DNA of 21,611 nt from a virus. Positions within the stretch are counted from its first letter, which is position 1. The number at the start of each line of letters is the position of its first letter. Both the position numbers and the translations under genes were made by a program. Positions 4,972-19,125 of this stretch are shown piece after piece. The notes beneath the pieces were generated by a model. That model was not told the origin of the DNA. It searched no databases and saw only the letters and a program-made list of their open reading frames with translations. The stretch lies in IMG/VR virus record IMGVR_UViG_3300032293_002138, positions 1 to 21,611 of that record, one strand, 5' to 3'.

Positions 4972-6014
4972 TCTTCATCCTTTGACAGTGCACTATTATA
5001 CGCTTCATCTATTATCTTGGCAAGCATTTGCTTGTCGATTGACTTCTCGTTAATGGTTCCAAGTTCCTCATGTAGTAACTGTAGAGTGTCCTTGTGTACG
5101 TCCACCGCAACCAGTTCAGGGTTTGCGCTAACTTCCTCGGTGACAGCCAATTCCGCCACACCCGCCTCATAGAACTTATCCATGTATTTCTCAAAAGGCG
5201 CAGCCTTAGTTCGCTTCTTGACAAAAATCTTGACGTAGCAATCCTTGAATGTCGAATAGTCCAATTTTTGCGGTTCGTCTTCATTATAGTCAAACGTATA
5301 GAAAAGTTTTCTAGTATTCTGGATGAATACAAGTTCTCTAGACGAAAAATCAAATACGTGGAATCCTTTCGGCTCCCATACATCCGAGAAAGCCATCTGA
5401 TACTGCGTACCCAGGTAATGAATATTATCACGACTAGACTTAACATGATAATGACCGGTGAGTACATAATCAAACTTGTCAAAGTGTTTTGGGTCATATC
5501 CTTGCTCTATAAAAATCCCTCGAATGCTCTGGAAGCCACACAATTCAAGGTGTCCCAACAGAACACTGCATGTGGTTTCTGAAATAAATTTTGCTGCGGC
5601 TTCCTCGTTCTCTGGGTTGATCCATGGTAATAGTGCGACACAGCCAGCTGTCGTGTTTATTTCAACTGGCTCAGAATATATCTCCCAGTTAGCATATTGA
5701 GATACCAATTCATCCAGAGAATTTACTCTATTGTTGTTTTTGTAATAAGTATCATGGTTGCCACAAATTGCAATACACTTGATTCCCATCTCTCTAAGAG
5801 GTTCAAGAAATCTTGTTCTTACCTGATTGAGAGTTTTAAAATTTACATACTTGCGGCGATCAAAAACATCTCCTAGATGAAAAATGGTTTTAATGTTGTT
5901 TTCCTTTATATAAGAAAATAACTGTTCTTCAAAGAACTTTAAAAAATATTCAAGAACGATAGGTGAATCGCCCTTGTACCCAAAATGGGTATCATTAAGA
6001 ATGATGGATTTCAT
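4968..6014 (-). CDS. 47: Recombination nuclease subunit gp47 (Mre11/SbcD-like)
   Basis: Nuclease partner of gp46. All metallophosphoesterase motifs are present in order in the 348-residue protein: L-N-D-T-H-F-G (residues 7-12 region, D8 and H10), G-D-V-F-D-R (D49), G-N-H-D (N86, H87), L-G-H-L-E (H155), and G-H-Y-H (H188, H190). Length is close to T4 gp47 (339). The ATG at 6014 lies inside the end of gmd (20-base overlap) and has no obvious Shine-Dalgarno sequence, so translation is probably coupled to gmd. In T4 the gene upstream of 47 on this side is the alpha-glucosyltransferase gene; here gmd occupies that place. Confidence 0.96.
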
Positions 6015-7062
6015 ATTTTGAATGGTTGTGTTGTTTTGTTGGTGTCATGTGCTTTATCATAAACTCTTTACGTGCGAGTTCCATATCATGGTCAACCATC
6101 ATTCTTACTAAACCATCAATGTCTACTTTGGGCTTCCATCCAAGCTGTCGCTTGGCCTTTTCTGGATTGCCGAGAAGTTGATCTACCTCTGCTGGACGGA
6201 AATACCGTTCATCGGTTACAATATATTGTTCATAGTTTTTTAGACCAGCGTAGGAAAAAGCCTTTTCACAAAATTCTCTCACAGATATCATATTGCCTGT
6301 AGCCACAACATAATCATCCGGGGTATCTTGCTGTAGCATCAGCCACATGGCTTCTACGTAATCGCCTGCATAACCCCAGTCACGCAAAGCATCCATGTTT
6401 CCGAGAACAAGGTTTTTTTGAAGACCTTGGTAGATTCTTCCGATAGCCCGAGTAATTTTTCTTGTAACAAATGTTTCGCCTCTGCGGGGACTTTCGTGGT
6501 TGAAGAGAATACCACATGAGGCATGCAAACCGTAGCTTTCCCGGTAGTTAATCGTTAAATGGTGTCCATATACCTTGGCACATCCATACGGAGAACGTGG
6601 ATAAAATTTGGTGTTTTCTGTTTGAGGTACTTCTTGTACCTTGCCATACATTTCGCTGCTTGAAGCCTGGTAATATCTAATCTGTTTTCCCGACCGATAC
6701 TGATGTTCTTTTGTTGCTTCCAACATATGTAATGTACCTATACCGTCTATCTGGCCAGTGTAAACTGGCATATCAAAAGATACCTTAACATGGCTCTGGG
6801 CACCTAAATTATAAACTTCATCGGGATTGGTTTTTTCAAAAATATTATAGATGCTATTATAATCACTCAAATCTCCGTAATGGAGAAAAAATGTTTTATT
6901 ATAAACCTCTGGATTTTGGATATGGTGTTCCAGACGAGCCGTGTTAAAAGAAGAAGAACGGCGGATTATACCATGCACCGAATATCCTTTAGATAAAAGA
7001 AAATCTGCAAGATAACTTCCATCTTGCCCAGAAATTCCAGTAATTAGCGCACTTTTATTCAT
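5995..7062 (-). CDS. gmd: GDP-mannose 4,6-dehydratase
   Basis: Converts GDP-D-mannose to GDP-4-keto-6-deoxy-D-mannose using bound NADP(H). This is the first committed step to GDP-L-fucose, GDP-D-rhamnose, GDP-perosamine and others. The 355-residue short-chain dehydrogenase has the Rossmann motif [11 protein letters not shown] (8-18), the GMD hallmark R-R-S-S-S-F-N-T (34-41), S-S-S-E-M-Y-G (134-140) and the catalytic Y159-G-C-A-K163. The sequence is full-length and intact. Its ATG overlaps the gp55 stop (ATGA) and its end overlaps gene 47, so it is woven into the essential operon. Base composition is nearer to the replication genes than to the AT-rich island. No GDP-fucose synthase follows in the window; two fucosyltransferase genes lie upstream at 17.5-19.1 kb. 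Confidence 0.96.
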
Positions 7063-8317: not shown

Positions 8318-9253
8318 TTATCTATTATTTTTTAACCAAGTTTCTAAATTTATTTTTGGTACCCATCCGAGTTCTTTTTTAGCCTTATTATTATCAGCTA
8401 AAGTTACTCTAGATTCCCCAGATCTTGGGGGAATATAAACAATATTGTCACTTATAATTTTTGCAATTTCATTTATAGAATAATTTTTACCTGTTCCTAT
8501 ATTATATATTTCTCCAAATTCATATAGTTTTTGTTTACAATTATTGATCTGCCATTTGTCAAATACTTTTGTTGCTGCTAAAATATTTGCTTCAACAACA
8601 TCAGACACATGTGTAAAATCTCTTCTTTGTTCCCCATCACCAACTATAGTAAGAGGTTCATTATTTTTATTTTGTCTTTGAAAAATACCAATAACAGGTG
8701 CATATTGACCTTTTATGGGCTGTCTTTCACCATATACGTTAAAATATCGAAATATGACAGTCTCAAGACCATAAAGCTTTGAATACATTTTACAAAATTC
8801 TTCTCCTGCAATTTTTGATACAGAGTATGGATTCAAACAATCATTAATCATATCTTCCTTTAAAGGAGGGTCATTTTTTAAACCATATGCAGCGGATGTA
8901 GAAGAGTACACCAATCTTTTTACTTTATATTTTCTGGAAAGTTCTAAAATTGTTGTTGTTCCCAAAACATTTGCTTCAACTGCTTTTAAAGGATTTTCTA
9001 TACAGGGTTGTATCCTTGCTTCCGCTGCTATATGAAAAACAACATCTGGTTTGTGTTTTTCAAAAACTAAAGAACAATTTTTATAATCGCATATATCATA
9101 TTTGTAATTATTTGCTTTATCGTTCCAATAAAATTGGTCGTGTGCGTCTGACGATTCGTTATCAATTACAGTAACATTGTGTCCATCGGCAATTAAACGA
9201 TCAACTAGATTAGAACCAATAAAACCAGCGCCACCAGTGATTAAATATTTCAT
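8318..9253 (-). CDS. NAD-dependent nucleotide-sugar epimerase (UDP-sugar 4-epimerase-like)
   Basis: A 311-residue extended short-chain dehydrogenase. The Rossmann motif is G-G-A-G-F-I-G-S (7-14), the adenine-binding acid is in V-I-D-N (29-32), the catalytic serine/threonine is in Y-S-S-T-S-A-A-Y-G (116-124), and Y143-S-V-S-K147 is the catalytic pair. R-Y-F-N-V-Y-G and G-D-G-E-Q-R-R-D-F-T-H-V follow. These fit the GalE / UDP-GlcNAc 4-epimerase branch, which would supply UDP-Gal or UDP-GalNAc(-type) donors. It lacks features of GDP-L-fucose synthase, so it is unlikely to complete the gmd pathway. Exact substrate cannot be read from the sequence. It starts one base after the stop of the upstream transferase and is well placed to feed the GT7-like enzyme. 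Confidence 0.88.
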   Translation of the reverse strand: MKYLITGGAGFIGSNLVDRLIADGHNVTVIDNESSDAHDQFYWNDKANNYKYDICDYKNCSLVFEKHKPDVVFHIAAEARIQPCIENPLKAVEANVLGTTTILELSRKYKVKRLVYSSTSAAYGLKNDPPLKEDMINDCLNPYSVSKIAGEEFCKMYSKLYGLETVIFRYFNVYGERQPIKGQYAPVIGIFQRQNKNNEPLTIVGDGEQRRDFTHVSDVVEANILAATKVFDKWQINNCKQKLYEFGEIYNIGTGKNYSINEIAKIISDNIVYIPPRSGESRVTLADNNKAKKELGWVPKINLETWLKNNR

Positions 9254-9254
9254 A

Positions 9255-9983
9255 TTATACCTCTATGTAATTTACATTATCAAAAACAAAAAAACCTTTA
9301 TCCCTATGCTCCATAACCGATCCGTGTATGAAAGAATTTATCTGAAGTTTTGAACTATTATGGTGTTTTATACCGGCAGATAAAATATTTCCACCAGAAT
9401 ACAAACAATAATATTTTTTACAACTATGCAAAATATCTGCATAATGTTTCAAACTATCTACTTCCAGTGTATTATTTATAGTATTTTTTAAAGTTATTGT
9501 ATTTAAATTTTTAAACTTTATTAAAAAAATATTTTTATTTTCTTCCATCATTTCATTTATTTTTTTATATAAATTATTTTCGTTATAAAATTTATTAACA
9601 CCATTTTTTAATAAAGATATGGCAGATAAATCTACTAAAGTATATTCAGAATAATTTTGTAAAAAATTTGGTTTATAGTAAATATCAGGATATCTATTTT
9701 GTGGATAAAAGTCGTGTGTTATTTCATTATAAGAAATAATATTATCTGTTGTTTTTAGTGGAAGATCTCCCCGGCAAGAACCAGCATTAATATCGCCATT
9801 ATCTATTCCACTTACGTATGGATTGCATCCCCAAACAAAATCATATATTTCATTGTTGCGATAAGTATTTTTTGAACTTATATAAAATTTTATATTTTTT
9901 TCAGTATATAAACGAGGCAGAGTTGAATATTGTAAATTGTCTCCAAGACCGCCCCATGGCTGTGATAAAATTACTTTATTCAT
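9255..9983 (-). CDS. Putative GT-B glycosyltransferase (GT9/heptosyltransferase-like)
   Basis: A 242-residue protein that opens with S-Q-P-W-G-G-L-G-D-N-L-Q-Y-S-T-L-P (7-23). This is the glycine-rich N-terminal loop seen in heptosyltransferase-like and related capsule transferases (G-G-L-G-D pattern). Near the C-terminus, Y-S-G-G-N-I-L-S-A-G-I resembles the donor-binding loop of GT-B enzymes, which in these families has S/T-G-x-x-x-x-A. It is shorter than canonical GT9 proteins (about 320-350 residues), so assignment beyond a GT-B-like fold is weak. It starts inside the end of the upstream FkbM-type methyltransferase gene (8-base overlap). Confidence 0.65.
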   Translation of the reverse strand: MNKVILSQPWGGLGDNLQYSTLPRLYTEKNIKFYISSKNTYRNNEIYDFVWGCNPYVSGIDNGDINAGSCRGDLPLKTTDNIISYNEITHDFYPQNRYPDIYYKPNFLQNYSEYTLVDLSAISLLKNGVNKFYNENNLYKKINEMMEENKNIFLIKFKNLNTITLKNTINNTLEVDSLKHYADILHSCKKYYCLYSGGNILSAGIKHHNSSKLQINSFIHGSVMEHRDKGFFVFDNVNYIEV

Positions 9984-10656
9984 GCAACCACCAATTTAAA
10001 ATATAATCTGGTTTATTTCTATCGTGAGGGTCGTTTGAAAAATCTAAACCTAAAATAGGGTAATTAATATTTTCTTTTGTAATTTGTTTACACATATCTT
10101 TTCTTAAAAACGAAAGTTCAACTACATCTGGTAAACCTTCTTTTTCTGGGCCACAATTATTACCATGTATATGGAACAGCACATAATTTTTATTTAATTT
10201 TTCTAAAATATTAAATAATTCTTTATTAGGGTTTGTCCACAAATAATGCAATTCAAAATTAATTTGAGAAAATTTTAATAAATTTTCATTTTTTATATTT
10301 GATAAAAGTTCATATTCGGATCCTTCTATATCCATACATAACATTAAATCATTATCTTCAATAAGATCCAATTCGGAATTAAAAAACTTTGAATCAACAA
10401 AAATTTGTTTAAATTCCATATTTTCGTGCCACAATCCATTATATGGATCACAGTCATACATTTTTACTTTTTTTCCTAAAAGACATAAATCGTATTCTGT
10501 CTGTGACACCCAACCAATTCCTAGAGAATAAACTAATTTTGTTTTTTCTAAAGGTTCTTTGTAAACTACATATCCACCATCTTGTTTTGGACCTAATCTA
10601 ATTTTTGTTAGTCCCAAATCATAAGGTGTTAACATGTTTTTAATTTTATTAATCAT
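9976..10656 (-). CDS. FkbM-type SAM-dependent methyltransferase
   Basis: A 226-residue protein with the FkbM/Methyltransf_21-like layout: R-L-G-P-K-Q-D-G-G-Y-V near 20-30, a SAM-binding loop at Y-S-L-G-I-G (43-48), an acidic ribose-binding stretch M-Y-D-C-D-P (66-71), and L-C-M-D-I-E-G-S-E-Y-E-L-L (106-118). The last is the family signature with the presumed catalytic acids. Members commonly O-methylate sugars in surface glycans and natural products. In this island it probably caps or decorates a sugar residue. ATG at 10656; the small HAD gene ends 4 bases upstream. Confidence 0.82.
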   Translation of the reverse strand: MINKIKNMLTPYDLGLTKIRLGPKQDGGYVVYKEPLEKTKLVYSLGIGWVSQTEYDLCLLGKKVKMYDCDPYNGLWHENMEFKQIFVDSKFFNSELDLIEDNDLMLCMDIEGSEYELLSNIKNENLLKFSQINFELHYLWTNPNKELFNILEKLNKNYVLFHIHGNNCGPEKEGLPDVVELSFLRKDMCKQITKENINYPILGLDFSNDPHDRNKPDYILNWWLHE

Positions 10657-10660
10657 ATTT

Positions 10661-10981
10661 TTATTTTTTAAAAAAATTTAAATCATTTATACCTTTATCA
10701 TCAATATAAACATCTGCAAAAGGTTTTCCTAAAACAATTCTATGGTATTTGGCTCCCCAATTATCTAGTTGGTTTTTAGTCTGCTCAAAACAGGCTTCAT
10801 AAGCTTTGCTAGGATTGTCTTGGCTTCTTCTCATTCCTCTTGCCGTAAAGTATACTATGGTGTGACCATTTTCATATAAAGAATTTATTTTTTTTATTCT
10901 TTCATTAAATGGTTTGGCATTTTCATAATCTCCATCTGTTTTGGTGCAAATTGTGCCGTCAATATCTATAACATAAATCAT
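10661..10981 (-). CDS. Small HAD-family phosphatase
   Basis: A 106-residue HAD hydrolase with all four motifs: D6-I-D8-G-T (nucleophile and acid/base aspartates), T46 in F-T-A-R, K86 in L-G-K-P, and D94-D95 in Y-I-D-D. It is a minimal, capless version like those in capsule gene clusters. I start it at the ATG 10981, which overlaps the talC stop (ATGA). A longer frame would need a TTG at 10993 and would overlap talC further. In the heptose-activation pathway a HAD phosphatase (GmhB) removes the distal phosphate after the kinase step. This protein could play that part for the sugar made here, but it is far shorter than GmhB and its substrate is not known. Confidence 0.85.
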   Translation of the reverse strand: MIYVIDIDGTICTKTDGDYENAKPFNERIKKINSLYENGHTIVYFTARGMRRSQDNPSKAYEACFEQTKNQLDNWGAKYHRIVLGKPFADVYIDDKGINDLNFFKK

Positions 10982-11652
10982 TGGCTTCTCCAATTTTTAA
11001 AATCTTCTAAAAATTTATTAACCGAAGATGTAGTTTGTGGATGTGTGTATAATTGTTTTATCACAGATAATCCTGTGGTAACAATATGTGCACCATTATT
11101 CCATGAGTCTAAAACATCAAATGGGGTTCTTATACTGCCAGCAATAATTTTTGTATCACTTTTATTTTGATCAATAAATGAACTCGTATTTTTTAAAACA
11201 ATATTTGGATTACCTCCAATATCTTTTAATCTTGCATAAAATAAAGACACATATTTTGCCCCAGCAAAAGAAGCCATGTTTAATTGGCTTTCTGTGTAGC
11301 AGCATGTACAATTTACATTTATACCATTTTTAGATAGAACTTTTATCGCTTTTAGTTCTTCATAACCTACAGGTATTTTGATATATAGATCATTACAATA
11401 AGTTTTTAACTTATTGTTTAAATTTTTTGCTTCTAAAACAATGTCTTCAAACTTTGTTGAAAAGATTTCAACACTAAAACTTAAATTATTATTTCCACAA
11501 TATTTTGCTAAATTTATGATTAAATTATCAAAATCGCCTTTGGGTTCTTTTGCTATAATTGAAGGGTTTGTGGTTACACCTTGGATAATACCCATTTCAT
11601 TGGCATCAATAATTTCGTTTAAATTTGCCGTATCTATAAAAAGTTGTTTCAT
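10978..11652 (-). CDS. talC: Transaldolase / fructose-6-phosphate aldolase, TalC family
   Basis: A 224-residue TIM-barrel aldolase of the small TalC/FSA group. It has the start F-I-D-T-A-N (5-10), V-T-T-N-P-S-I (26-32), the Schiff-base lysine K92 in Y-I-K-I-P-V, N-V-N-C-T-C-C-Y near 112-119, the barrel segment F-A-G-A-K-Y-V-S, and A-G-S-I-R-T-P. Such enzymes transfer dihydroxyacetone units or cleave fructose 6-phosphate. talC is a well-known auxiliary metabolic gene of cyanophages, where it is thought to push the pentose phosphate pathway. Here it is embedded between a cupin and a HAD phosphatase in a sugar-activation cluster, so it may instead feed or drain a sugar-phosphate pool used for glycan synthesis. 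Whether it is a transaldolase or an aldolase cannot be decided. Confidence 0.92.
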   Translation of the reverse strand: MKQLFIDTANLNEIIDANEMGIIQGVTTNPSIIAKEPKGDFDNLIINLAKYCGNNNLSFSVEIFSTKFEDIVLEAKNLNNKLKTYCNDLYIKIPVGYEELKAIKVLSKNGINVNCTCCYTESQLNMASFAGAKYVSLFYARLKDIGGNPNIVLKNTSSFIDQNKSDTKIIAGSIRTPFDVLDSWNNGAHIVTTGLSVIKQLYTHPQTTSSVNKFLEDFKNWRSQ

Positions 11653-11653
11653 A

Positions 11654-12079
11654 TTATTCCGTTTCTTTAAAAATATATGTTTTTCCGTCTTCTACAATAT
11701 GCGAATCAGAATCATCATCTTTTGATGACCATTCTATTATAACTGTATCTTCCAGAGCAATTCGCATATGCATTAACCCTTTAGGAATATGGATCACATC
11801 ACCTGGATTTAAAATTAATGATTTATTTTTTGCTCTACCAATTCTCAATCCTAATTTTAACTTTCCGGATTCTATATAATACCACTCTTCCTTGTTTACG
11901 TGATACTCCATACTACTCTGTGTCTTTGCCTTCATAAAAATTTTTTTCAAAGCAAATACTTCTGTAGATTCTATCGTTGTTATATTTCCCCAATATTTTT
12001 CTTTAAAATCAATAATTTTTTTAATTTTTGGTAATTTTTGAATTCCGTATTCATTGTCCATAATATTTTTTAAATCCAT
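11654..12079 (-). CDS. Cupin, sugar-phosphate isomerase-like
   Basis: A single-domain cupin of about 141 residues. Cupin motif 1 is visible as S-M-E-Y-H-x-x-K-E-E-W-Y-Y-I-x-S-G, with the metal-type histidine and glutamates. Motif 2 is N-P-G-D-V-I-H-I-P-K-G-L-M-H. The overall pattern resembles the C-terminal cupin of type II mannose-6-phosphate isomerase / mannose-1-phosphate guanylyltransferase, and stand-alone cupins in capsule clusters. Mannose 6-phosphate isomerisation would link to gmd, but epimerase or regulatory roles are equally possible. Start choices are a TTG at 12091, ATG 12079 and ATG 12061. I prefer 12079, which overlaps the AraD-like gene by 29 bases. Confidence 0.78.
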   Translation of the reverse strand: MDLKNIMDNEYGIQKLPKIKKIIDFKEKYWGNITTIESTEVFALKKIFMKAKTQSSMEYHVNKEEWYYIESGKLKLGLRIGRAKNKSLILNPGDVIHIPKGLMHMRIALEDTVIIEWSSKDDDSDSHIVEDGKTYIFKETE

Positions 12080-12740
12080 TTTTTCTTTCAAAGTGTTTTT
12101 TAAATAAACTATTTTGGTTTTTACTATTTGCTATAGTACCACATATATTAAAACTGTAAAGAGCAATTTTTGCAATTTCTTCCAGAACAATTGAACATTC
12201 TAAAGCGTGATCTGGATTATTTGAAAAACTTACACTTCCATGAGATGGTATTAGTATACTTGGAATTTTTAAAGGATCTGTATCTGTACTTTTATACCAT
12301 TTTACAATTTTTTTACCTAAATTGGTTTCGTAATCGTCCAATTCATTTTCTTCCAATTCTTCGCATACAGGAATATCTCCATCATAATAGTCTGCGTGGG
12401 TTGTTCCTAATAGTTTTATAGGCATTTTTGCTTGAGCCCAAGCTGTAGCATACGTCGAATGCGTATGTATTATAGAAGAAATAGAATTAAAATTTTTGTA
12501 AATTTCTAAATGTATTTTCAAATCTACGGATGGTTTTTTGCCCTGGAGTAATTCACCGTTTTCTTTTAATACACATATATTTTTTTTACTCAATAAATTA
12601 AATGGAATTCCTGAAGGTTTTATATAAATTAAACCTTCTTTTTTTATGCTAGCATTTCCCCATGTTAATTTTACTAAATCATTTTTAATTAACGATTGGT
12701 TTAAAAATATGCATTTATCTAATGTATTTTGACATATCAT
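12051..12740 (-). CDS. araD: L-ribulose-5-phosphate 4-epimerase-like class II aldolase (AraD)
   Basis: AraD interconverts L-ribulose 5-phosphate and D-xylulose 5-phosphate by retro-aldol chemistry with a bound metal. At 229 residues this is the length of the E. coli enzyme (231). Landmarks agree with those I recall: T-W-G-N29-A-S, K41-P-S-G, S-V-D73, the metal pair H92-T-H94-S, G-T-T-H-A-D117-Y, S-H167-G, then K-K-H216-F and the C-terminal K-K-Y-Y-G-Q, a hallmark of AraD rather than of fuculose-phosphate aldolase. The gene overlaps the kinase gene by 26 bases. AraD genes usually sit in arabinose-use operons. Here it stands with a RpiB-nucleotidyltransferase and a kinase, so a biosynthetic role toward an activated sugar is inferred. 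Confidence 0.9.
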   Translation of the reverse strand: MICQNTLDKCIFLNQSLIKNDLVKLTWGNASIKKEGLIYIKPSGIPFNLLSKKNICVLKENGELLQGKKPSVDLKIHLEIYKNFNSISSIIHTHSTYATAWAQAKMPIKLLGTTHADYYDGDIPVCEELEENELDDYETNLGKKIVKWYKSTDTDPLKIPSILIPSHGSVSFSNNPDHALECSIVLEEIAKIALYSFNICGTIANSKNQNSLFKKHFERKNGFKKYYGQ

Positions 12741-13557
12741 TATAAAAATTTTCTAAAGAACAATTATTTTTATCTTTTAAAGATATTACATAAGCTGCCC
12801 ACAGATTTGCAAAATCACAACACTCTGTTGCTATATATGCAGCACAAAAAGCATCTCCAGCTCCAATAATATTTTTTACATTTGTTTTATAGCTTTTAAA
12901 GTGGGTAGTTAATTTATTTTTTATACTTCTGCAACCAGAAGAACCCATAGTTACGATATAATTTTTATCTGAATCATAAATTATATTATCAAATTCTTCT
13001 TCATTTAATATCGCCGTATCATAATTTTTATAATTAAAATAATTATTTTTTTTATCAGACATCTGTGCTGATACAAATATTTTATTTTTTACATTTTTAA
13101 GATTTTTTAATAAAGATTCTTGAACAACACCACATCTATAATCATTAATAAAAATTACATCATAATTATTATCAAAAAAATTATAATTTTTAAAATTTAT
13201 TTTTTCTGTATTGCAATCGTTTATTTGCAGATATTTGTATCTTTCATTTTCTTTTATTATCCAATATCTACTTTTTTTATTTGTTTTATTTCCAATATTA
13301 ATTGTTGTAGTACAACAATCTTCCAATAAATGTTCATCTATTTGACTTATGGATGTGACAAAAGTAACATTACACCCAAGAATTTTTAAAAATTTTGTTG
13401 TATTGGCGGTTCCACCCAATTCTTTGTAAGAATCAATCAGATTTCCTTTTAATGTTGGTGATTCTAAAGAAATTCCTGTAGCATTTATATTAATACTTTC
13501 ATCCAGAATAGTATCGCCTATTACTAAAATATTTTTATTTTTTATTTTTTTTCGCAT
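12715..13557 (-). CDS. PfkB/ribokinase-family sugar kinase, HldE kinase-domain-like
   Basis: A 280-residue ribokinase-fold kinase. It opens like the HldE (RfaE) kinase domain: I-L-V-I-G-D-T-I-L-D (10-19), S-L-E-S-P-T-L-K-G near 30-38, and L-G-G-T-A-N-T-T (47-54). It ends with the catalytic I-G-A-G-D-A motif, D235 being the base. HldE kinase phosphorylates C1 of D-glycero-D-manno-heptose 7-phosphate to the 1,7-bisphosphate. In E. coli the kinase is fused to a nucleotidyltransferase, whereas here that second domain is carried by the adjacent gene, fused to RpiB. The kinase start lies within the fusion gene's end (16-base overlap). The substrate could be a pentose, hexose or heptose phosphate. 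Confidence 0.88.
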   Translation of the reverse strand: MRKKIKNKNILVIGDTILDESININATGISLESPTLKGNLIDSYKELGGTANTTKFLKILGCNVTFVTSISQIDEHLLEDCCTTTINIGNKTNKKSRYWIIKENERYKYLQINDCNTEKINFKNYNFFDNNYDVIFINDYRCGVVQESLLKNLKNVKNKIFVSAQMSDKKNNYFNYKNYDTAILNEEEFDNIIYDSDKNYIVTMGSSGCRSIKNKLTTHFKSYKTNVKNIIGAGDAFCAAYIATECCDFANLWAAYVISLKDKNNCSLENFYNDMSKYIR

Positions 13558-14405
13558 GTAGATAAAGATTTAATTTTTTTTAAAATATTTGTAGTCGAGT
13601 AATTGTTTACCAATGGATATATTTTAACATCTATAAAATTTGGTATATTATCACGGATTCTCACTTCTTCAGCGGTCCACTCAGATCCTTTTACCAAAAC
13701 TGACGGATTTAATGTGTTATATAGCGTTTTTAGTTCAGTCTCATCATTAAAAATTAAAACTTCATCCACGTATTCTATTGCTTCTAAAATTTTTTTTCTA
13801 TCTATTTGAGTATTTATTGGTCTATTTTCACCTTTTAATTGTTTGACTCTTTCGTCAGAATCTATAGCTACAACTAGATAATCTCCTTGTTTTTTTGAAA
13901 ATTTTAATAATTCGATGTGTCCTTTATGTATAACATCAAAAACTCCGTTAGTTAAAACAATTCCTTTATGTTTGTCTATTTTTTCAACTCTTTTTACATG
14001 CCTACCTTCAGCCCATTTTTCATTTAACCAAGCATCTACTAATTGTTTCATAGTATCATCATCAGTTATCCAGGATCCTAAACATAAAACATTTGTATTA
14101 TTGTGTTCTTTGGATTTTACAGCTGTTAACATATTATGGCCCAAAGCAGCTCTAACATTTTTAAATCTATTTGCAACAATACACATACCCATTCCGGTTC
14201 CACATATTAAAATTCCAAAATCACATTCTTTATGTGATACAATTGTTGCTAATTGTGAAGCATAATCGACGTAATCAACACTGCTTTCGCTTTCATGTGG
14301 GCCTAGATCGATAACACTGTATTTTTTTTCTTTTAAATAAGTTTTTATAATTTCTTTTGATTTTATACCGTTATGATCAGATGCTATTGTTATAATTTTA
14401 TTCAT
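13542..14405 (-). CDS. Bifunctional RpiB isomerase - HldE-type nucleotidyltransferase fusion
   Basis: A 287-residue, two-domain protein in one intact frame. Residues 1-145 are a complete RpiB/LacAB sugar-phosphate isomerase: I-A-S-D-H-N-G (7-13), G-I-L-I-C68-G-T-G-M-G-M with the catalytic cysteine, H-N-N-T-N-V-L (101-107), and V-D-A-W-L plus G-R-H-x-x-R-V-E at its end. Residues about 149-285 are a cytidylyltransferase-like domain with G-V-F-D-V-I-H160-K-G-H163, the nucleotide-binding HxGH motif, N-R-P-I near 194-197, V-K-G near 238-240 and S-T-T-N-I-L-K-K-I near 270-278, as in the HldE C-terminal domain. I chose the ATG at 14405 because it gives the standard RpiB N-terminus and an 8-base overlap; a GTG at 14432 would add nine residues. 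The fusion implies that both steps act on one pathway. Confidence 0.92.
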   Translation of the reverse strand: MNKIITIASDHNGIKSKEIIKTYLKEKKYSVIDLGPHESESSVDYVDYASQLATIVSHKECDFGILICGTGMGMCIVANRFKNVRAALGHNMLTAVKSKEHNNTNVLCLGSWITDDDTMKQLVDAWLNEKWAEGRHVKRVEKIDKHKGIVLTNGVFDVIHKGHIELLKFSKKQGDYLVVAIDSDERVKQLKGENRPINTQIDRKKILEAIEYVDEVLIFNDETELKTLYNTLNPSVLVKGSEWTAEEVRIRDNIPNFIDVKIYPLVNNYSTTNILKKIKSLSTCEKK

Positions 14406-14988
14406 TTGTTGTTTTATAAACTCCATATGCACATTTAGCTTGATGAAAGCCTATTTCTCCATTAAATGAATAAACTTTTACACAATCACCAAAATAATTT
14501 TTATAATCTTCTAAGCTAAAACTATAAGGGTGTTCATTGTTGGTAGGTAAATCAATGGGTTCAAAAAATTTTATAATTTTTGAATGTTTTTTACATATTT
14601 CTATTAATTTATCTGGATCCTGGACGTGTTGCATTAAATTAAAAATCCAAACTTCATCTACGTATGGAAAGTTGCAAGATTCTGCTTTTTCTTTTATTAT
14701 TTCTATATTTTTATTTTCATATAGATAATCTATCCCTTCGTATGGCGTTGGTTCAATAATATAAGATTTACTATAGTTTGTACAAAAAAGCAATCCTGCA
14801 ATTCTAGCTGGACCTATTTCTACTACAGATTTGCCAGATAAATTTGTATCAATATTTAAATATTTAAAATAATAAGGATAGCTATTTTTATAAGATTCAT
14901 AAGATTTTTCTACAGAATCTTGTATATGATATATTTTTTCACCTATTTGAGCGGATTCCCATCTATTGTCATCTATTGGAATTTTCAT
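14398..14988 (-). CDS. Class I SAM-dependent methyltransferase, putative
   Basis: A 196-residue protein with a class I methyltransferase core. The SAM-binding motif I is V-V-E-I-G-P-A-R (55-62), an acidic residue E79 follows strand 2, and V-W-I-F-N-L-M-Q-H-V-Q-D-P-D (113-126) matches the post-II region of sugar and small-molecule methyltransferases. The C-terminal H-P-Y-S-F-S-L-E-D-Y (153-162) is common in capsule-cluster members. The substrate is unknown; a glycan or sugar-nucleotide O-methylation is the natural guess from context. It lies between a GT-A transferase (3 bases upstream) and the RpiB fusion (8-base overlap). Confidence 0.75.
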   Translation of the reverse strand: MKIPIDDNRWESAQIGEKIYHIQDSVEKSYESYKNSYPYYFKYLNIDTNLSGKSVVEIGPARIAGLLFCTNYSKSYIIEPTPYEGIDYLYENKNIEIIKEKAESCNFPYVDEVWIFNLMQHVQDPDKLIEICKKHSKIIKFFEPIDLPTNNEHPYSFSLEDYKNYFGDCVKVYSFNGEIGFHQAKCAYGVYKTTNE

Positions 14989-16616: not shown

Positions 16617-17568
16617 TTAAAAAATATTCCTTTTTAATTTTTATTAATTTTTTAATTTCATCATAACTTAAATTTACATAATTATTTTTTATATTAACCA
16701 TTTTGTCATGTTCTAAATTTTTATTAATTTCTATTAAATGTGCTTGATGATATAAGTTATTATTTTCAGCATATTCTGCTGAACCAAAATGGTTATTCCA
16801 ATGTTTGTGAAATTCTATTTTTTTATATAAACATTCTAATTTAAACCAAAATAAAGCATCTTCAGGGGCATATCCGTAAAATAACTCACTATCAAAGCCT
16901 CCAACCTCATAAAATAAAGTTTTTGGAACAAGAGTCGATCCACCAACAGCTCCGGGCATATTTTTAGTTGTTTTTGAATAATATTCTTTATCAAGATCTG
17001 GAATTAAATTATTGCTATTATTTTGTAATAATTCTGTATCTTTAGTTGAAAGATTTAAAACCATTTTATTTGAATATGGTTGTATCCAGCTTTTGCAATT
17101 TACAATTAAAGATTCTAAATTTTTAAAAAATAAATTAGGAGTAAGTAAATCGCAGTCATGAAATAAATACCATTCGGAGCTTGGAAAAGCTTTTACACTA
17201 CAATTAAACACCAACCCACGTGAATATAAATCATTTGTATTAGAATTTTTTAAATTTAAAAAACCATAATCAATTTTGTTATTCAAACAGTATAATTTAT
17301 GTTTTGGTCGGTAATCATGCTCACAAACAATAATATTGTACTCATCTGGATTACTTGAATATTTTATACTATTTTTTAAAAAATTTAATGTTGTATGAAG
17401 ATATTTTGTTCTATCTTTTACACCTATAATAATATTATATTTTTTATTTTGTTTATTATAAATAAATTTTTGATCTAAAACATATTTAAAATTATTTTTA
17501 TAAAAATTAGTATATAATAATTTTATATCATCATATGACAAATTTTTAACTTTTAATTCTGTTTGCAT
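16609..17568 (-). CDS. GT7-like galactosyltransferase (beta-1,4-GalT C-domain pattern)
   Basis: A 319-residue protein. The first half is a GT-A domain with I-I-I-G-V-K-D-R (46-53) and the metal motif F-H-D138-C-D140. The second half shows the GT7 C-terminal pattern: G-A-V-G-G-S-T (206-212), G-G-F-D-S-E-L-F (223-230), then Y-G-Y-A-P-E-D-A (231-238), corresponding to the G-W-G-x-E-D acceptor-binding signature of beta-1,4-galactosyltransferases. An UDP-Gal or UDP-GalNAc donor is therefore plausible, and the 4-epimerase gene at 8.3 kb could supply it. A short related stretch, N-L-S-Y-D-D-I-K near the start and N-L-S-Y-D-E-I-K near the end, repeats within the protein. Linkage specificity is inferred, not shown. 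Confidence 0.8.
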   Translation of the reverse strand: MQTELKVKNLSYDDIKLLYTNFYKNNFKYVLDQKFIYNKQNKKYNIIIGVKDRTKYLHTTLNFLKNSIKYSSNPDEYNIIVCEHDYRPKHKLYCLNNKIDYGFLNLKNSNTNDLYSRGLVFNCSVKAFPSSEWYLFHDCDLLTPNLFFKNLESLIVNCKSWIQPYSNKMVLNLSTKDTELLQNNSNNLIPDLDKEYYSKTTKNMPGAVGGSTLVPKTLFYEVGGFDSELFYGYAPEDALFWFKLECLYKKIEFHKHWNNHFGSAEYAENNNLYHQAHLIEINKNLEHDKMVNIKNNYVNLSYDEIKKLIKIKKEYFLNA

Positions 17569-18337
17569 ATTCTTTTATTCCTGTTAAAAAATAATCATCA
17601 AATGAAAAATTTAAAGATTTTGCTATTTCATAATTTTTACTTACATATGGAAACATTTCAAAATATAAATTTTCTGTTAAAGTATTTATATTAAAATTTT
17701 CATTATAAAAAATAATTCCTCGTTCATCAAATATAGACTTTATATAATCATCACCAGCATATATTGGAACGGTTCCAGTCATAAAACAATCTAAAATTTT
17801 TTCTGAAAAATATCCTGGGATGATATCATTTTCTATGGCAAAAGAAAAAAAATAATCTTTTAATCCGGTTAACTTATTTTCTATTGGATTTATACCAATG
17901 CCAAAACAATCAATATTTTTTTTATACTTGTTATAAACAGACACCCGATATTTTTGCATTGGTGTCTGTTGTTTTAAACTTGTTATAAACGAACACAATT
18001 TATTTTTTTTATATAAACCGGGAGAATTAATCCAAGATTTAAAAGGAGGTGGTGTGTGAATAATTTTTTCATTAATTAAATTTTTATTAAAAGATATAAT
18101 TAAATTTGGTTCCAAATAATTTATAATATCTGCATATTTAACATTTAATAAATATTCTGACTCTATTAAATATAAAATTTTAAATTTGTCGGTATTTATT
18201 TTTTTACATGCATCTATGTATATTACCACATCAGCATTATCTAAATTATCAATTTTTTCCCAAAAATTATTATTTGGAATATAATTATTCCATGTAAATG
18301 GATCAAAATACGTTGGAGCCACATATGCATTTATCAT
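17546..18337 (-). CDS. Alpha-1,3-fucosyltransferase, GT10 family
   Basis: A 263-residue GT10-type enzyme (GDP-fucose donor, GT-B fold). The donor-binding region is clear: C-S-F-I-T-S (115-120), Y-R-V-S-V-Y-N-K-Y (130-138), C-F-G-I-G (144-148), K-D-Y-F-F-S-F-A-I-E-N (160-170), Y-F-S-E-K-I-L-D (176-183) and G-T-V-P-I-Y-A-G-D (188-196). These are the hallmark order of alpha-1,3/4-fucosyltransferases. I start at ATG 18337, which shares a base with the GT11 stop (TAATG) and has GGGA upstream. A longer frame begins at 18376 with two more in-frame ATG/GTG choices inside the GT11 gene. It is a soluble bacterial-type form without the heptad tail of Helicobacter enzymes. Confidence 0.87.
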   Translation of the reverse strand: MINAYVAPTYFDPFTWNNYIPNNNFWEKIDNLDNADVVIYIDACKKINTDKFKILYLIESEYLLNVKYADIINYLEPNLIISFNKNLINEKIIHTPPPFKSWINSPGLYKKNKLCSFITSLKQQTPMQKYRVSVYNKYKKNIDCFGIGINPIENKLTGLKDYFFSFAIENDIIPGYFSEKILDCFMTGTVPIYAGDDYIKSIFDERGIIFYNENFNINTLTENLYFEMFPYVSKNYEIAKSLNFSFDDYFLTGIKEYANRIKS

Positions 18338-19125
18338 TAAATGATTTCCCATTTTTTGCAATAAATATCTGACCAATTTTTTGGCATGTTTTGAGAATCA
18401 CCAAACCATTTTGAAGGCGCTATAGTTTTTTTGGAATTCGAGAGCCACGATCCCCACCAACTAAAAGAGCTGTTAGCTAGGATGTGGTAATCACACATTG
18501 TCATCAGACACATGTCAATGTATGAACTTGTATTTTCAACAAATAAAATTGGTCTTTTTAAATTTAAAAACATTTTTTTACTTATTTCAATATCGTCACT
18601 AAAAATATAAATCAATAAATCATCAGGTAATTTGTTCAATGCTTCCTTATAATATTCAATAGAACATACCGGATGATTATGCTGTTGATTAACATAGTCG
18701 CCAAGTCTTATATGAAGAGATATAACTTCTTTTTTAGTTATACTGCGAATATCCAAAGCTTTTTGATATATTTCTTTTTTAAAACAAAACTCTTTTAAAA
18801 GTTCTTCTCTATAATTTTCAAAATATTTTTCACTTTGAAAATAACCACATATATCAGTATCATCCAATATGCCAAATATTCCAGGATTATAACAAAAATT
18901 ATGTTCCATTGCTTTAAATTTTGGACTATAATTTGTGCTATCTTTTGCTGATAAATTTTCAAAACAATCATTTAGTGATAAATTTTTATATTCATCATTT
19001 GATTTATTTTGCATTGGTATTCCAAAATCATAGCCTTTTCTATTTGCTATAGAAAATAAAGTTGCATACTGAAACATTTGGTTACCGAGCCGACCATAAT
19101 TTCCAAGCTTATTAAACGTAATCAT
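18337..19125 (-). CDS. Alpha-1,2-fucosyltransferase, GT11 family
   Basis: A 262-residue GT11 enzyme transferring L-fucose from GDP-fucose, typically to C2 of galactose. Family landmarks are all present: N-Y-G-R-L-G-N-Q-M-F-Q-Y-A (9-21), G-Y-F-Q-S-E-K-Y-F (94-102), the donor-binding H-I-R-L-G-D-Y (138-144), F-S-D-D near 175-178, and the C-terminal A-N-S-S-F-S-W-W-G-S-W-L (217-228). Length is close to the usual 280-300 residues. A GAGG Shine-Dalgarno lies 7-8 bases ahead of the ATG at 19125, which also overlaps the GT25-like stop (ATGA). With the GT10 gene directly downstream, this makes a two-fucosyltransferase pair. Confidence 0.95.
   Translation of the reverse strand: MITFNKLGNYGRLGNQMFQYATLFSIANRKGYDFGIPMQNKSNDEYKNLSLNDCFENLSAKDSTNYSPKFKAMEHNFCYNPGIFGILDDTDICGYFQSEKYFENYREELLKEFCFKKEIYQKALDIRSITKKEVISLHIRLGDYVNQQHNHPVCSIEYYKEALNKLPDDLLIYIFSDDIEISKKMFLNLKRPILFVENTSSYIDMCLMTMCDYHILANSSFSWWGSWLSNSKKTIAPSKWFGDSQNMPKNWSDIYCKKWEII

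Follow-up and report, generated by a model that had tools for sequence, protein, structure and literature searches.

The window analyzed here, a 21,611-nucleotide stretch of viral DNA (positions 1 to 21,611 of IMG/VR record IMGVR_UViG_3300032293_002138), carries on its minus strand, between positions 10,661 and 14,405, six open reading frames (ORFs) that form a real conserved unit, more than a chance association. This unit, hereafter the cassette, probably encodes a pathway to a non-standard ADP-heptose for phage-directed change of the host surface polysaccharide, a reading held with modest confidence on the basis of enzyme families and their pocket residues. No description of the cassette was found in the searchable literature, which excludes most subscription papers; as far as that literature goes, the cassette is undescribed. 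The six genes, each overlapping or almost touching the next, are, in order of transcription:

13542..14405, minus strand: RpiB-like isomerase fused to an HldE-type (RfaE domain II) nucleotidyltransferase (NT), from family profiles and motifs
12715..13557, minus strand: PfkB-family kinase, HldE kinase-domain-like, from family profiles, substrate loop, and GAGD motif
12051..12740, minus strand: AraD-like (L-ribulose-5-phosphate 4-epimerase) protein, from family profiles and catalytic/zinc residues
11654..12091, minus strand: small cupin, candidate sugar-phosphate isomerase/epimerase, relative of cyanophage T4-GC 307
10978..11652, minus strand: TalC/FSA family protein, from family profiles and transaldolase-type Glu and Phe
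10661..10993, minus strand: small HAD phosphatase, EcbF/BcbF-like, from family profile and identity to T4-GC 306

A conserved six-gene unit

The initial annotation of this stretch had named these six genes, with this strand and order, and ORFs and family profiles recover all of them. It had also ended the set at 14,405, which is preferable to the GTG at 14,432 in the program's ORF list, since in most relatives the protein begins at the position corresponding to 14,405 (MNKIITIASDHNG). Relatives came from alignment-based scans of viral contigs, which returned first 10 contigs with a full-length RpiB–NT fusion and then many more; when a lone kinase or AraD sequence served as query, viral contigs gave no match. 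In total, 58 loci combine RpiB with cassette genes, 34 of them non-redundant (at 90% RpiB identity), and they derive from phages and one Prochlorococcus. Restricting the count to non-redundant loci flanked by 5.5 kb or more on each side leaves 25, all of which have NT, kinase, cupin, and TalC, with AraD and HAD in 23. Gene order is mostly constant across the 34 non-redundant loci, with variants in which HAD is relocated upstream, AraD lies ahead of the kinase, or AraD is missing (L105/L248, L260, L026), and with an unfused arrangement, AraD–RpiB–kinase–TalC–cupin, whose NT lies a few kb off (L112/L262, L261, L286). The six genes diverge in a correlated fashion from locus to locus (identity-matrix r 0.68–0.96, with at most one of 2000 permutations as high). 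The claim that these genes belong together is thus upheld, the neighborhood search and correlated divergence contradicting independent assortment.

The fusion itself is a single ORF in 53 of the 58 loci, and the fused forms constitute one clade (support 0.868), which argues that it is not a frameshift artifact. A Rhizobium plasmid match covering 81% of the fusion turned out to be an ordinary kinase–nucleotidyltransferase HldE and was set aside. In some loci (L102/L245, L246, L238), a second NT/kinase/cupin set sits beside the cassette, which argues for a different product from the cassette.

A scan of bacterial genome contigs with the cassette cupin gave 129 pattern matches and one relative, Prochlorococcus sp. 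AG-347-M18 (L178), which carries all six genes in unchanged order. The RpiB–NT fusion occurs in one of 400 Cyanobiaceae genomes; rarity in bacteria is a statement about this cupin query and those 400 genomes. The Prochlorococcus contig has 31.6% guanine plus cytosine (G+C) and contains genes recognizable by eye as housekeeping genes (IspF, ThiE, PheS, FtsH, LexA), while its cassette lies within a polysaccharide island of 26% G+C, where genes for glycosyltransferases, a sugar dehydratase, and a sugar nucleotidyltransferase also occur; on both grounds, this copy is most likely chromosomal. It nests among phage copies in the tree (support 0.957), a placement consistent with phage–host exchange. 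The description of the genes as a phage set therefore holds insofar as many phages carry them, but the identical set also occurs in what is most likely a Prochlorococcus chromosome. Elsewhere on the same contig (L191, 1–2790), a SIS isomerase, a GHMP kinase, and a sugar nucleotidyltransferase, identified by eye, stand in a row resembling a GDP-heptose pathway.

Enzyme families and substrate pockets

The two halves of the fusion match PF02502 (RpiB, 169 bits) and PF01467/TIGR02199 rfaE_dom_II (134 bits). The RpiB domain exceeds the cut-off of the TIGR01120 rpiB equivalog (148.3 against 138.65 bits) and scores far higher on RpiB models than on LacA/LacB models. It shares with the RpiB and LacAB isomerases the fold, the Asp-His, the CGTG catalytic Cys, the His-Asn, and the C-terminal Arg pair, and differs from them in the NT fusion, in DHN for DHA/G/V, and in a Trp in place of Arg113 (M. 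tuberculosis numbering; the position was mapped via His102/His99 and the E. coli sequence). Trp occupies this position in all 58 cassette RpiBs, fused or unfused, whereas 25 stand-alone phage RpiBs have Arg (24) or Leu (1); among non-redundant sequences, Trp is found in 34/34 cassette and 0/17 stand-alone copies (Fisher p = 7e-14, inflated by relatedness). The Trp-type RpiBs all fall within one clade (support 0.885), and it is invariance across this diverse clade, not the p value, that is informative. Arg113 is a phosphate-binding residue that partly covers the RpiB pocket; in LacAB it is replaced, phosphate is bound otherwise, and a longer pocket serves a six-carbon substrate (PMC3755991).

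The NT domain finds its best heptose-family match in rfaE_dom_II, below the TIGR02199 cut-off of 181.5 bits, and has the HKGH and STTN motifs. The NTP-promiscuous heptose NT STTR5 carries the motif (F/L)XXGRSTT, whose arginine is reported to allow CTP and UTP (PMC11573728). That arginine is missing here: the window reads PLVNNYSTT, and STT is preceded by Tyr in 50 of 58 NT ORFs and by Arg in one. ATP is therefore the likely nucleotide, as judged from this motif.

Comparable departures are seen in the kinase and in AraD. The kinase (PF00294, PfkB) has TIGR02198 rfaE_dom_I as its best NCBIfam match (61 bits against a cut-off of 345) and keeps the GAGD motif, but its substrate loop reads SLESPTLK in the window and SLE(S/T)PTxK in most cassettes, as against SPEAPVPV in canonical copies and in those of the ordinary phage module described below. 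The AraD-like protein (PF00596/AraD; PRK08193, 218 bits) retains, in alignment with 1jdi/1k0w and reference AraDs, the catalytic Asp120 and Tyr229, the zinc His residues, and the C-terminal YYGQ of an L-ribulose-5-phosphate 4-epimerase. Its phosphate pocket differs: PSSD, present in six of six references, is PSVD in the window, and its second Ser—which we take to be Ser75 of E. coli AraD, a phosphate ligand—is Val, Thr, or Ile in the cassettes. Taken together, the RpiB Trp, the replacement of Ser75, and the changed kinase loop suggest that these enzymes have been retargeted to another substrate.

TalC (PF00923/fsa_talC_mipB, 177 bits), aligned with the transaldolase 3r8r, has SVE and SLF motifs that place Glu and Phe at the positions of Gln59 and Tyr131 of fructose-6-phosphate aldolase (FSA), and both are conserved across the aligned cassettes. 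As aligned, these are residues of the transaldolase type, not of the FSA type. Transaldolase makes sedoheptulose 7-phosphate, and a TalC with transaldolase residues should therefore be able to make it too. The HAD protein is closest to TIGR01689, the capsule phosphatases EcbF/BcbF, yet scores far under the curated cut-off (52 against 162 bits).

The cupin, 60–83% identical among cassettes, matches Cupin_1, with PF01050 barely above cut-off. The motif of Type II phosphomannose isomerase comprises Ser, Gln, His, and Arg (PMC9602691); the cassette cupin retains Ser and His, has Glu or His for Gln and Lys for Arg, and so departs from it. No cupin function was assigned from PDB and fold matches, which fail to separate one such function from another.

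Three further minus-strand genes lie downstream of the HAD gene, the second of which is linked to the cassette:

9976..10656, minus strand: FkbM-family methyltransferase, between the HAD gene and the GT9-like gene
9255..9983, minus strand: GT9-like gene, cassette-linked, from predicted fold
8318..9253, minus strand: GalE-like short-chain dehydrogenase/reductase (SDR) enzyme, with 48–69% identical copies in several cassette phages

The gene at 9255–9983 is found together with the cassette in Prochlorococcus and in six of the phage records that were searched. Sequence profiles assign its product to no GT9 family even at E 10 (HMMER filters drop weak hits), and a PDB-sequence search gave nothing useful. 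Its AlphaFold model (mean predicted local distance difference test score, pLDDT, 75.5; predicted template modeling score, pTM, 0.80) has as best Foldseek matches TibC, 3tov (GT9), WaaF, and WaaC. VIA-align Z scores are 13.6 for WaaC, 12.7 for TibC, 12.4 for 3tov, and 11.9 for WaaF, with the next family at 9.1 and one unrelated chain, 9grx_1, at 11.5. The product is thus predicted to have a GT9 fold closest to the ADP-heptosyltransferases, though fold alone is no proof of donor specificity, and on this model it is the likely user of the cassette sugar. The GalE-like enzyme may act in later modification of the nucleotide sugar, and its sequence is not that of a canonical HldD.

The proposed pathway and its alternatives

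Much of the cassette can be related to a module already common in phages. Records with the nearest NTs include cyanophages in which NT lies beside a kinase, a protein of about 110 residues labeled 'phosphoheptose isomerase', a 'cysteine dioxygenase', and an epimerase (T4-GC 304–308). The first of these labels (T4-GC 306) is borne by a member of the same HAD family as the window phosphatase, with 45–60% identity, and the second (T4-GC 307) by a member of the cassette cupin family; both, as found in L010, L012, L014, and L015, are apparent mis-annotations. The epimerase of the ordinary cyanophage module is HldD-like (TIGR02197, 212 bits). Viral heptose enzymes have been reported (Tang et al., 2024, as summarized in PMC11573728 and PMC11461863), and these together with T4-GC 304–308 are homologous to the cassette NT (42–50%), HAD (45–60%), cupin (approximately 30–37%), and kinase (approximately 25%). 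By homology, therefore, four of the six cassette genes are members of a common phage ADP-heptose-type module. These sources list viral heptose NTs as single-domain, kinase-fused, or isomerase/kinase-fused; an RpiB–NT fusion does not appear in that list.

The initial annotation had observed that isomerase, kinase, HAD phosphatase, and NT mirror the logic of ADP-heptose synthesis (GmhA, HldE or HldA plus HldC, GmhB, HldD), and the homology of four genes to this widespread module bears it out. The two systems have in common a clustered HldE-type C1 kinase and NT, HAD phosphatase, and aldose–ketose isomerase, and the linked GT9-like transferase is a further likeness. The cassette differs in having no SIS-type GmhA and no canonical HldD that could be found in the records searched, in its HAD family, in the addition of AraD and TalC, in the fusion of RpiB to NT, and in its substrate loops. 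With 133 phage loci with NT and kinase among L002–L174 taken as the sample of the ordinary module, the phage HldD profile is found in 93 of 133 ordinary loci and in none of the 58 cassette loci. TIGR02197 is likewise below cut-off in 12 of 12 cassette records, several of which have GalE-like enzymes instead.

In the pathway that we propose, TalC, as a transaldolase, would form sedoheptulose 7-phosphate from fructose 6-phosphate and erythrose 4-phosphate. AraD would epimerize the ketose phosphate at C4, a step that would be optional, as AraD is absent from a few loci; the RpiB domain, the cupin, or both would interconvert ketose and aldose. The HldE-like kinase would phosphorylate C1, the HAD phosphatase would remove the terminal phosphate, and the NT domain fused to RpiB would add AMP from ATP, after which the GT9-like protein would transfer the activated sugar. 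Here we infer the substrate, the step order, the stereochemistry, the nucleotide, the acceptor, and the role of the cupin. Stereochemical reasoning suggests that AraD, acting at C4 of sedoheptulose 7-phosphate, would give a manno-heptulose and from it a galacto- or talo-configured heptose. A more specific proposal is correspondingly tentative: that the product is an undescribed ADP-heptose stereoisomer (e.g., of the galacto or talo series) made by way of the RpiB–NT fusion, and that the cassette moves between phages and the surface-polysaccharide islands of Prochlorococcus.

Several observations weigh against a heptose pathway. NT, kinase, HAD, TalC, and AraD each score below the curated equivalog cut-off, and the AraD catalytic set is complete for L-ribulose-5-phosphate 4-epimerase, and a pentulose substrate is conceivable; we know of no described C4-epimerase acting on a heptulose 7-phosphate. 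RpiB and the cupin are both candidate isomerases, and one of them has no evident step to perform. Several deeper cassette records, themselves fragments, yielded no GT9-like gene, and the model of the GT9-like protein combines a pLDDT of 75.5 with approximately 11% identity to the matched structures. Finally, given the apparent GDP-heptose genes seen by eye on the Prochlorococcus contig, a further heptose may seem redundant there.

The surplus isomerase leads to a variant compatible with the heptose reading, in which the cupin is the aldose–ketose isomerase that replaces GmhA, as in the ordinary module, and RpiB performs another isomerization of the same sugar. This arrangement is plausible, although we lean away from it. 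The cupin is present in 123 of the 133 ordinary loci, and none of 30 phage records gave a match to a GmhA-type SIS isomerase (PF13580) above cut-off; the 30 include many fragments, 12 records with the cassette, and four deposited as complete cyanophage genomes. In the ordinary module, the cupin could thus replace GmhA, or else the host could supply GmhA. The cupin fold is near those of phosphomannose isomerase and D-lyxose isomerase, but similar Z scores are obtained with a large number of unrelated cupins, and the Gln and Arg of phosphomannose isomerase are not kept. The earlier proposal that RpiB stands in for GmhA remains plausible, then, with the qualification that the cupin is a second candidate.

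The initial annotation had preferred a pentose. On such a route, AraD would convert D-xylulose 5-phosphate to L-ribulose 5-phosphate, RpiB would yield an L-aldopentose 5-phosphate, and a 1,5-bisphosphate and a 1-phosphate would lead to an NDP-L-pentofuranose; TalC would serve only to supply pentose phosphates. The retained Asp, C-terminal Tyr, and zinc His of AraD and the rpiB equivalog score speak for this route. It nevertheless appears unlikely, in view of the loss of Arg113 from all cassette RpiBs and of Ser75 from the cassette AraDs, the absence of the required AraD from L105/L248, L026, and L260, the invariant presence of a transaldolase-type TalC that it does not need, and the linked heptosyltransferase-like fold. 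The same pocket changes, TalC type, and fold make a heptose, which had been the fallback, the better choice.

Still less probable is a hexose, whereby an AraD-like step from fructose 6-phosphate to tagatose 6-phosphate and a LacAB-like RpiB step to an aldohexose 6-phosphate would precede the 1-kinase, the phosphatase, and an NDP-hexose. LacAB, of the same family, does handle tagatose 6-phosphate and galactose 6-phosphate, with phosphate bound without the Arg113 contact (PMC3755991), but the cassette domain fits RpiB models far better than LacA/LacB, TalC would not be needed, and GalE offers a simpler way to ordinary NDP-galactose. That TalC, RpiB, and AraD are auxiliary metabolic genes raising pentose-phosphate flux for nucleotide synthesis, beside glycan genes by chance, is very improbable and largely contradicted: talC does belong to the known auxiliary genes of cyanophages, but RpiB is fused to a sugar NT in one clade, the gene set is almost invariant with correlated divergence, the pocket residues are cassette-specific, and the Prochlorococcus copy, most likely chromosomal, lies within a polysaccharide island.

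Window setting and implications

The 21.6-kb virus contig that makes up the window carries T4-like core genes, with relatives of RegA, gp62, gp44, gp45, gp46, and gp47 on its minus strand and, on its plus strand, UvsY and a UvsW-like helicase. Amid these sits an island of glycan genes, which encode glycosyltransferases, methyltransferases, and sugar-nucleotide enzymes. It includes a strong GDP-mannose 4,6-dehydratase (5995–7062; TIGR01472, 510 bits) immediately after the gp47-like gene, and GT10 and GT11 fucosyltransferase-like genes (17546–19125). At the DNA level, the uvsY–uvsW end matched none of the phage records compared; at the protein level, Methylophilales phage Melnitz and cyanophages come nearest to it, at approximately 45%. 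TalC, HAD, and the FkbM methyltransferase (window 9976–11652) are 96–98% identical to L016 7342–9019, as against 53–83% for the adjoining genes, a contrast that suggests recent recombination.

These results set out a well-defined pathway, open to test, for a sugar that both marine phages and at least one Prochlorococcus encode; it includes a new enzyme fusion, and its three pocket signatures predict an altered substrate. One review reports the phosphatase to be absent in viruses (PMC11573728 / PMC11461863). The small HAD protein, with candidates in 86 of the 133 ordinary phage loci, is itself a candidate for the viral heptose phosphatase and, if the assignment is true, would fill the place left vacant in that account. 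If the pathway operates as proposed, a phage-mobilized sugar would join the surface-polysaccharide repertoire of the ocean, suggesting that phages may remodel host surfaces with sugars built from precursors they make themselves.

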